DNA of 38,145 nt from Candidatus Microgenomates bacterium (GTDB lineage Bacteria > Patescibacteriota > Microgenomatia > Levybacterales > UBA12049), in NCBI GenBank assembly GCA_025451755.1, contig JANWJT010000016.1:1-38145 (forward strand), given 5' to 3'. How positions within the stretch are numbered: position 1 is the stretch's first letter; each line of letters starts with the position of its first letter. The position numbers and the translations under genes were made by a program. The notes under the pieces are model-generated. The model had not been told where the DNA came from, did not search any database, and was given only the letters and a program-made list of their open reading frames with translations. Below, piece after piece: positions 2,089 through 3,976 of this stretch.

Positions 2089-3213
2089 TTATGCAGTTAA
2101 AGCAGGAGAGGACTTCTTTTCACTCGTATCGCAACACGAAACATTATCGCTTCCACAATGCTGGCAACTAGAAAGTAGTTCGTTCTCAGGTCTTAAATTT
2201 GTCATTCCACAATCAGGACATGCGAATGTTCTTTTTCCATATTTATCTTCGGGCTGAGTGCTAAAAATAGAGCTGCTTTCTCCGCTTGCACTAAATCCAC
2301 AACTTCCTCCTACAACTGGCGGAGTAATATTTCCATACCTTTCAAAAATCACCTGTGGAGTTTTTTCAAAAACTATTTTAGGAGCTTTTTCTTTACCAAA
2401 AATATAATCTTTTTCTTCCAAAACGCGATTTTCGATTGCATATCTTGCTTTAATAAGTTCTTGATCAGAAGCATTTTCTCTGACAAGCTGAATGAATCCT
2501 CCAACCAAAGGCATTACCAAAGGAATAAGCTTGTCACGCCATTCAATATTAAACTTTTCTGTTTCTCCTATGAGGGTTATTATGTCATCCGATGTTTGAA
2601 TAGTATCTGATTGCCTAATAATTGTTGGATTTGCTAAAAAGTCTGTATCTTTATCGTAATTTTGGACATTTTTGTCGAAGTATTTTAAATATTCTTTGTG
2701 TTCTTCTATTCCTAGCTCATTTCTGTAAGGAATGATCCTTAAGCTTTTTCCCTCTTCTGGATCTTCCAAAACCTGAGCAATAAATGTAAAACTATGCGTT
2801 CCATATCCGTCTTCCTTAGATCCTGGAGGACTAACCCATAATGCCATTGTTCCTACGGGCGCATATGCAAGCTCGTCTTGCAATTTTTGAAAACCCAAAC
2901 ACTCTGCAACTTCTCTTTTTACCGAAAGCCCTCTTTCTTGTCTATAGTCAATTGCTTTTCTGTACACATTTATAATTGGTCCCGGATCTGCATGAGGAGA
3001 TTCCAAATAAGTTTCTCCGACATCGCTTGTTTTGATTGAATAAAAGAACTCATCATACTTTGCGCCTAATCTGTATTCTCCCAGATATCTCAATATATTT
3101 TCACTAATATTTCCTTCTCTCCTCTTAGTAATTTCTTCTTGAGAGTATCCTTGGGGAACTGGCGCATGATAATTTGCTGTATCAAAACCTACTGTATATG
3201 CTTCTGTTCTCAT
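2089..3213 (-). CDS. Hypothetical protein with a C-terminal zinc ribbon
   Basis: 374 residues with no family that I recognise. Residues 1-300 are soluble mixed alpha/beta with many acidic and aromatic residues and no membrane segment. Near residue 305 there is a Gly/Ser/Cys-rich stretch (VVGGSCGFSASGESSS). Near residues 333-358 a four-cysteine zinc ribbon is clear: CPDCGMTN, then CQHCGSDN about 18 residues later. A further CC pair follows at the end (VSCCDTS). The ribbon suggests nucleic-acid or protein binding, but that is inference. The ATG has an AGAGGT Shine-Dalgarno about 8 nt upstream. It lies upstream of the 1601-2029 gene on the same strand with a 59-nt gap, so it may lead the operon ending in the ATPase. 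Confidence 0.65.
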   Translation of the reverse strand: MRTEAYTVGFDTANYHAPVPQGYSQEEITKRREGNISENILRYLGEYRLGAKYDEFFYSIKTSDVGETYLESPHADPGPIINVYRKAIDYRQERGLSVKREVAECLGFQKLQDELAYAPVGTMALWVSPPGSKEDGYGTHSFTFIAQVLEDPEEGKSLRIIPYRNELGIEEHKEYLKYFDKNVQNYDKDTDFLANPTIIRQSDTIQTSDDIITLIGETEKFNIEWRDKLIPLVMPLVGGFIQLVRENASDQELIKARYAIENRVLEEKDYIFGKEKAPKIVFEKTPQVIFERYGNITPPVVGGSCGFSASGESSSIFSTQPEDKYGKRTFACPDCGMTNLRPENELLSSCQHCGSDNVSCCDTSEKKSSPALTA

Positions 3214-3240: not shown

Positions 3241-3285
3241 CTGTCAAGCAGTCGATCTCCTCACTTTGCTCGTCCGGTCCAAATT
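3241..3285. repeat. GC-rich micro-repeat at the end of the adenosyltransferase gene
   Basis: Read on the minus strand, this stretch holds GGACGAGCAAAGTGAGGAGA, which resembles the short GC-rich GAGC(A/G)AAG(C/T)GAGG elements that recur in CPR genomes and stands out from the AT-rich surroundings. It supplies the last codons (TGRAK) and stop of the adenosyltransferase gene. A related string (gagcaaagcgaag) occurs near 33535. Calling it a dispersed element is inference from composition and partial similarity. Confidence 0.35.
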
Positions 3286-3800
3286 GTTTCTTTTTGATTT
3301 TCTTTCATATTTATAAAACGCGACATTGTTAAAAATAAATCGGACAATCTATTTATGTAAACGATTATATCACTCTGTACTTTTTCTTTAGAAGACAAAC
3401 TTACCATTTTTCTTTCGGCTCTGCGAGTTATAGTTCTTGCAATATGTAAAGATGATCCTCCCACTCCTCCTCCTGGCAAAATAAAATTAAAAAGCGGTGG
3501 TAATTCTTTAGTCATTTTATCGATTAGATTTTCAAATTCTTTTGTTCTTTTTGAAAGATCTATTTTTTGATTAGGATTTGCCAAAGCAGCGCCTACTTCA
3601 AACAGGTCAGATTGAATCTTTACCAATTCTTTTCGGATTTCAGATTCAGAATTTCGGATTTGTGATATAGCAAAACCTATCGTACTATTTAGTTCATCAA
3701 CTGTACCGATTGCTTCTATTCGAGGGCTAGCTTTCGAGATTCTAATGCCTGAGTAAAGCCCTGTTTCTCCTTTGTCTCCTGTTTTTGTATAAATTGGCAT
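3261..3800 (-). CDS. Cob(I)yrinic acid a,c-diamide / cobalamin adenosyltransferase, PduO type
   Basis: Transfers the adenosyl group of ATP to cob(I)alamin to make adenosylcobalamin in the cytoplasm. The protein opens with MPIYTKTGDKGETGL, the typical ATP-binding N-terminus of PduO/CobO2-type enzymes. It continues with EAIGTVDELNSTIG, the RRAER motif and a C-terminal YINRLSDLFLTMSRF helix. I start it at the ATG at 3800 (179 aa, normal for the family) rather than the GTG at 3914 used by the ORF track. The ATG has an AGAGGA site with 7-nt spacing, and the extra 38 codons are a translated riboswitch. It lies directly after nrdJ, whose cofactor it makes. The genome presumably salvages cobalamin, since no synthesis genes are visible here. 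The C-terminal codons come from a GC-rich repeat, and a GATTTCAGATTC-type short repeat lies inside the gene near 3632-3661. Confidence 0.93.
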   Translation of the reverse strand: MPIYTKTGDKGETGLYSGIRISKASPRIEAIGTVDELNSTIGFAISQIRNSESEIRKELVKIQSDLFEVGAALANPNQKIDLSKRTKEFENLIDKMTKELPPLFNFILPGGGVGGSSLHIARTITRRAERKMVSLSSKEKVQSDIIVYINRLSDLFLTMSRFINMKENQKETIWTGRAK

Positions 3801-3807
3801 AAAAAAA

Positions 3808-3813
3808 TCCTCT
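3808..3813 (-). promoter_or_regulatory. Shine-Dalgarno that decides the adenosyltransferase start
   Basis: AGAGGA (minus strand) followed by seven T and then ATG at 3800. It rules in the MPIYTK start and rules out the GTG at 3914. The GAGGA core is complementary to TCCTC at 3828-3832, so the riboswitch expression platform can in principle hide it. Confidence 0.7.
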
Positions 3814-3816
3814 TTT

Positions 3817-3940
3817 GGTTTCCCTAGGAGGACGAAAACAAACTCCAGCTCGGGAAACCTTTGCGTATGTAGTTTTCTGGATTTAACAGTAGCGGCTCTT
3901 CCATCGAATTTCACGATGTTTACCTACATACAGGTTTTAT
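3817..3940 (-). promoter_or_regulatory. Candidate cobalamin (AdoCbl) riboswitch with translational expression platform
   Basis: The minus-strand leader has the conserved cobalamin-aptamer core. GTGAAATTC is closed by CATCG/CGATG (the P4-like arm), and CCGCTACTGTTA matches the family's CCGCCACTGTnA. A 9-bp P3-like helix, TGTATGTAG with CTACATACG, encloses them. The downstream part is a long hairpin, GGTTTCCC (3852-3859) with GGGAAACC (3817-3824), with inner GGAG/CTCC pairing. The TCCTCC at 3827-3832 can pair either inside this hairpin or with the Shine-Dalgarno GAGGA, a classic switch for translation control. AAACC near 3933-3937 could also compete for GGTTT. A canonical B12 box is weak (GAGCTGGAG at most), so the subclass is unclear. 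A TACAAT at 3941-3946 is a possible -10; it would start the RNA near 3934, so the AAACC pairing is uncertain. Confidence 0.72.
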
Positions 3941-3962
3941 ATTGTACTACTTTTTATTTTGT

Positions 3963-3976
3963 CCCGCCATGGCGGG
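3963..3976. repeat. Perfect 14-bp palindrome CCCGCCATGGCGGG
   Basis: A perfect GC-rich palindrome in an AT-rich gap, between the nrdJ stop and the riboswitch leader of the adenosyltransferase. It sits where the -35 of the leader's promoter would be if TACAAT at 3941-3946 is the -10. It lacks a U-tract on the minus strand, so it is not a standard terminator. It may be an operator, a processing hairpin between nrdJ and the adenosyltransferase, or one of the dispersed palindromic elements. Confidence 0.6.

Follow-up and report, generated by a model that had tools for sequence, protein, structure and literature searches.

The leader of a cob(I)alamin adenosyltransferase gene in the window (the whole 38,145 nt stretch that was analysed, from a Candidatus Microgenomates bacterium) raises the question of how a cobalamin aptamer might control a ribosome-binding site that lies 31 nt beyond its P13 hairpin. 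The initial annotation had proposed a translational riboswitch in which TCCTCC pairs either with GGAG inside a hairpin or with the ribosome site GAGGA. The leader is probably an AdoCbl-II riboswitch that cobalamin turns OFF by way of an expression platform based on strand exchange, and the best reading overall is that of a known riboswitch class with a variant platform. The proposed logic of Shine-Dalgarno (SD), anti-SD and anti-anti-SD sequences stands, but two things had been missed, the P13 hairpin with its kissing loop and the likeness of the SD hairpin to a terminator.

Mutually exclusive pairings in the leader

The elements of the proposed switch are all present on the minus strand (TCCTCC 3832–3827, GGTTTCCC 3859–3852, GGGAAACC 3824–3817, GGAG 3846–3843 and AAACC 3937–3933), and the two pairings of TCCTCC exclude each other. 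The assignment to an adenosyltransferase leader is equally borne out, as an AdoCbl-II aptamer, the only match in the window's own genome, lies directly 5' of the gene in a leader spanning 3943–3798. The features are as follows.

3862–3943, minus strand: AdoCbl-II cobalamin aptamer (Rfam RF01689; cmscan 39.6 bits, gathering threshold 36.5)
3893–3897, minus strand: aptamer loop L5, AGCCG, partner in the kissing loop (UGCCG in all other relatives except the first copy of L042)
3843–3856, minus strand: P13 hairpin, UUCC 3856–3853 with GGAG 3846–3843, loop L13 CGAGCU 3852–3847
3817–3859, minus strand: antisequester/antiterminator, GGUUUCCC 3859–3852 with GGGAAACC 3824–3817, and inner GGAG 3846–3843 with CUCC 3830–3827
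3808–3832, minus strand: SD sequesterer or terminator-like hairpin, UCCUC 3832–3828 with GAGGA 3812–3808
3808–3812, minus strand: Shine-Dalgarno sequence GAGGA, 7 nt before the ATG at 3800–3798
3801–3807, minus strand: U7 tract, spacer between SD and AUG and possible terminator U-tract (T6–8 in most relatives)
3261–3800, minus strand: PduO-type cob(I)alamin adenosyltransferase, 179 aa, putative regulated gene (Pfam PF01923, E 2.3e-57)
2089–3213, minus strand: uncharacterised 374-aa protein with C-terminal Cys motifs (own AdoCbl-II leaders in relatives)

The start of the adenosyltransferase is most likely the ATG at 3800 (MPIYTKTGDKG), judged by its relatives, among which this is the usual start, rather than the listed GTG at 3914.

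Three structures compete within the platform, as P13, the GGTTTCCC/GGGAAACC hairpin with its GGAG/CTCC helix, and the TCCTC/GAGGA pairing are mutually exclusive. When the leader is folded without constraints, the outer antisequester helix forms with a probability of about 1.0 and leaves the SD open; this is the only populated state, with an SD:anti-SD probability of 0.000. Holding P13, with L13 and L5 kept free for docking, brings the SD:anti-SD pairing to 0.97–1.0, and in the platform alone the computed opening of the SD falls from 0.63 to 0.01 upon P13 docking. Thermodynamics alone thus gives the single stable state that would have spoken against a switch, while the second state appears when P13 is held docked and so needs the aptamer. 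In a control where P13 and the SD were kept and the 30-nt spacer was dinucleotide-shuffled, 6 of 1000 shuffles went from a mostly open to a closed SD on docking, as the window does; the stability of the whole leader is unremarkable (z = -1.29).

Without cobalamin, the nascent GGUUUCCC...GGAG strand would pair with CUCC...GGGAAACC, burying both arms of P13 together with the anti-SD, whereupon GAGGA would be open and the adenosyltransferase made. With cobalamin bound, P13 would fold instead and its loop would dock on L5 through a bulged kissing loop of 5 bp; this would deprive UCCUC of its partners, so that it could pair with GAGGA and hide the ribosome site. The U7 tract might also permit some termination in the bound state. 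Simulated folding of the nascent chain has the antisequester formed by 3821–3817, before the SD is synthesised, and docking would therefore have to come first or to invade.

A further suggestion, that an upstream AAACC also claims GGTTT, did not survive. This pairing has a probability of 0.3–0.6 in the docked model only, and neither the closest riboswitch relative (the first copy of L042) nor, as a rule, the family has it; across the family, the best helix was no better than those in shuffled flanks (mean null fraction 0.62).

The P13 hairpin and its kissing loop

A hairpin with the loop CGAGCA is common between aptamer and gene in the relatives, and corresponds to P13. In the window, L5 and L13 pair at 3897–3847, 3896–3848, 3895–3849, 3894–3851 and 3893–3852, with A3850 bulged, and this arrangement of 5 bp and one bulge is paired in 72 of 72 distinct sequences. 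The combination UGCCG/CGAGCA occurs in all but one of these 72 L5/P13 sequences (class sample), and the A3897–U3847 pair of the window compensates for the usual U–A, a swap to AGCCG and CGAGCU that the first copy of L042 shares. The bulged base varies (A, C or U) between invariant neighbours. As four of the five pairs never vary, the case for the kissing loop combines this single compensatory event with the bulge pattern and the counterpart in the env8 riboswitch.

Within P13, both sides have changed in 4 of 4 pairs, and over P5, kissing loop and P13 together 95.8% of the cells are standard pairs, in rows for which a P13 stem of 2 bp or more was required, a choice that biases the set towards P13 pairing. 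Double changes were counted in 133 cells of these elements, compared with 37.5 after shuffling and at most 35 with the partners slid, counts which are inflated by the relatedness of the sequences. Excluded from the 72 are L152 and L181, two class-level leaders that the script had assigned wrongly, and L005, whose bulge is shifted (CGGTCA). A 6-bp match noticed by eye in the window, which would join the loop of P4 (GUGAAAUUC) to GAGUUU, was another candidate for the kissing loop; it was dropped in favour of the pairing of (U/A)GCCG in L5 with CGAGC(A/U), which is shared by relatives and shows compensation.

Docking of P13 on L5 via a bulged helix is an established way of coupling to cobalamin, and in env8 a bulge of 1–2 nt in the kissing helix makes docking cobalamin-dependent (PMC10907184). 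The window resembles env8, a member of AdoCbl-II/Cbl-II (RF01689), in its aptamer fold, its bulged L5–P13 kissing loop and, as predicted, in hiding of the SD driven by cobalamin (PMC10907184). The SD of env8, however, is part of the P13 loop and is occluded directly, whereas the distant SD of the window would be reached by strand exchange via anti-SD and antisequester. An exchange between P13 and antiterminator is established for metE of Priestia megaterium, where, as in the window, P13 excludes an antiterminator made with its 3' arm, and docking permits a terminator (PMC10653944). The L5 sequence there is UCCCG, compared with AGCCG here, and the window further differs in that both arms of P13 enter the antiterminator, the 3' arm of the terminator-like hairpin is the SD, and the U-tract is the spacer between SD and AUG.

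The expression platform in relatives and its probable main output

In leaders of the same taxonomic family, the element after P13 is an antiterminator strand that can pair with both P13 and L13 and overlaps the 5' arm of a further hairpin usually ending in T6–8. A helix equivalent to the antisequester, of 4–10 bp, is found in most relatives. The stem of the SD hairpin is paired in 47 of 47 family leaders at positions 1–5, and in 45–47 of 47 over positions 1–6, in part by selection, as the script took the best hairpin of each leader; the informative part is the change of pair type (C-G, T-A, G-C and A-T across the 47 leaders), and TCCTC/GAGGA of the window differs from the common TCCTT/AAGGA by a change that preserves the pairing. 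For most of the family, the SD forms the 3' arm of this hairpin, and the ATG follows a few nt beyond. Comparison at the sequence level thus supports P13, kissing loop, antisequester and terminator stem alike.

The mutually exclusive anti-SD pairings are likewise supported by relatives, the SD arm in the first copy of L042 excepted. This leader keeps the antisequester (AAGGTTTCC/GGAGACCTT) and the A–U kissing pair, but has no SD in a hairpin and has lost the SD:anti-SD pairing. In L003, where the adenosyltransferase is 77% identical, P13, antiterminator and terminator are kept, the ATG lies 56 nt downstream, and the nascent chain passes through the antiterminator before the terminator. In L052, which is of the same genus (80% identity), P13 has the loop CGAGCA and the terminator is a different one. 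The preservation of alternative pairings in homologues, named in the initial annotation as a check, therefore holds for the logic, but not for every copy. In another lineage of the class (L158, L186, L202, L208, L212, L146) the same L5 and L13 occur with unrelated arms; those of L158 (GAGCATCGA/TCGATGCTC versus GCTCCC/GGGGAGC-T6) follow the same exchange logic with a different sequence.

Class-wide, the start codon lies at most 17 nt from the 3' arm of P13 in 45 of 64 leaders, so that P13 itself would cover the SD, and most class-level relatives have the SD within the P13 loop or arm, which is not the case in the window. Leaders of this direct-occlusion type (for example L171, L190 and L153) share L5, L13 and P13 with the window; their P13 3' arm is the SD and, unlike the window, they have neither terminator nor antiterminator. 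Both forms argue for an OFF polarity, the first as P13 covers the SD, the second as the antiterminator of most family leaders uses bases of L13 and is thus excluded by docking. The opposite polarity, with cobalamin stabilising the 8-bp hairpin as P13 and thereby opening the SD, could draw on the reported activating corrinoid riboswitch of A. halodurans cobT (PMC10653944), and induction by cobalamin would be plausible for an enzyme that acts on it. We nevertheless regard this as very unlikely, since in most relatives the long hairpin consumes the L13 bases CGAG and so cannot dock, and since docking would hide the SD in the class-wide forms, which have it in the arm of P13.

A more serious alternative, though still one we rate well behind the preferred reading, is that the platform is mainly a transcriptional attenuator, in which docking would let an intrinsic terminator form, with U7 at its end, the overlap with the SD being a by-product. 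A run of at least five T directly before the ATG is nearly confined to these platforms (29 of 152 ORF starts, 27 of them at the platforms, in a background of 58 family loci plus the window, whose platform is counted twice, as L001 and as the window), and in L003, L034, L036, L045, L047, L053 and L055 hairpin and T-run lie 14–57 nt before the ATG and look like plain terminators. The family median for the hairpin is -11.0 kcal/mol. In the window the U7 is present, but its hairpin of 5–6 bp with a 15-nt loop is weak at -5.2 kcal/mol, the second weakest of 49, and its 3' arm is an SD at a favourable spacing of 7 nt. The SD-open state lies 7–8 kcal/mol below the docked state, kissing-loop and ligand energies not included, which is the largest gap of the computed set (0.0–6.8 in relatives, median 1.4). 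With so weak an SD hairpin and so stable an SD-open state, control of translation, or a partly decayed switch, is likelier in the window than strong termination, and translation would be the main output of this copy. The same gap, together with the zero probability of SD sequestration in the unconstrained fold, could also indicate that this copy has decayed to being constitutively ON, its antisequester too stable and its sequesterer too weak for docking to win. We think this improbable, as the kissing loop is preserved through a compensatory change, the TCCTC/GAGGA pairing is itself such a pair-preserving change, the U7 is retained, and docking can precede synthesis of the 3' arm of the antisequester.

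The AdoCbl-II platform of the Levybacteria might let one hairpin control both steps, its terminator 3' arm being the SD and its U-tract the SD-AUG spacer. We tentatively suggest, at somewhat less than even chances, that this is so and that the platform may derive from the class-wide direct-occlusion form, by gain of a second SD-like copy and an anti-SD downstream of P13, the old SD becoming the anti-anti-SD. Since direct occlusion and strand exchange both occur with one aptamer and one kissing loop, the evolution of the platform becomes testable.

Distribution and gene neighbourhood

The RF01689 aptamer has 61 matches in the taxonomic family (in 51 of 73 genomes) and is present in 187 of 374 sampled genomes of the class. 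This places a cobalamin riboswitch, its switching circuit drawn in full, across a class of candidate-phyla bacteria with small genomes. A search of open-access papers found nothing combining Patescibacteria, cobalamin and riboswitch, which is weak evidence of novelty given that coverage. For inducible expression in Patescibacteria, riboswitches have been suggested as tools (PMC11665869), to which the present leader could contribute a native part.

Among named organisms, the adenosyltransferase has its nearest relatives in Levybacteria (77% identity for L059), which places the window in this uncultivated lineage of the candidate phyla. Upstream on the same strand are genes for a ribonucleotide reductase (PF02867, PF12637), presumably of the B12-dependent class II, a DUF6941 protein and NrdR. 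Downstream, the 374-aa ORF is probably the second gene on the adenosyltransferase transcript, as suggested by the gap of 47 nt, and would then come under joint control of the riboswitch. The protein has no Pfam match, nor a significant match in a structure/fold search. At least 15 family relatives of it are encoded directly behind an AdoCbl-II leader of their own, and it thus represents a recurrent putative B12-regulated gene with no assigned function.

A palindrome, CCCGCCATGGCGGG, is located at 3963–3976 (minus strand) between the ribonucleotide reductase gene and the aptamer; a search of the window for CCGCCNNNNGGCGG gave no match, the palindrome there having a 2-nt centre. Similar CCGCC...GGCGG palindromes occur between aptamer and P13 in L007, L027, L043 and L167, and inside P13 in L046, and are perhaps small mobile repeats. 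Other AdoCbl-II leaders precede different types of genes, encoding small membrane proteins with an RLLPHP motif (L004, L039, L046) or secreted or anchored proteins with a YKG..GKDAL-like motif (L005, L008, L032, L037, L038); our guess is that these are possibly cobalamin uptake genes.
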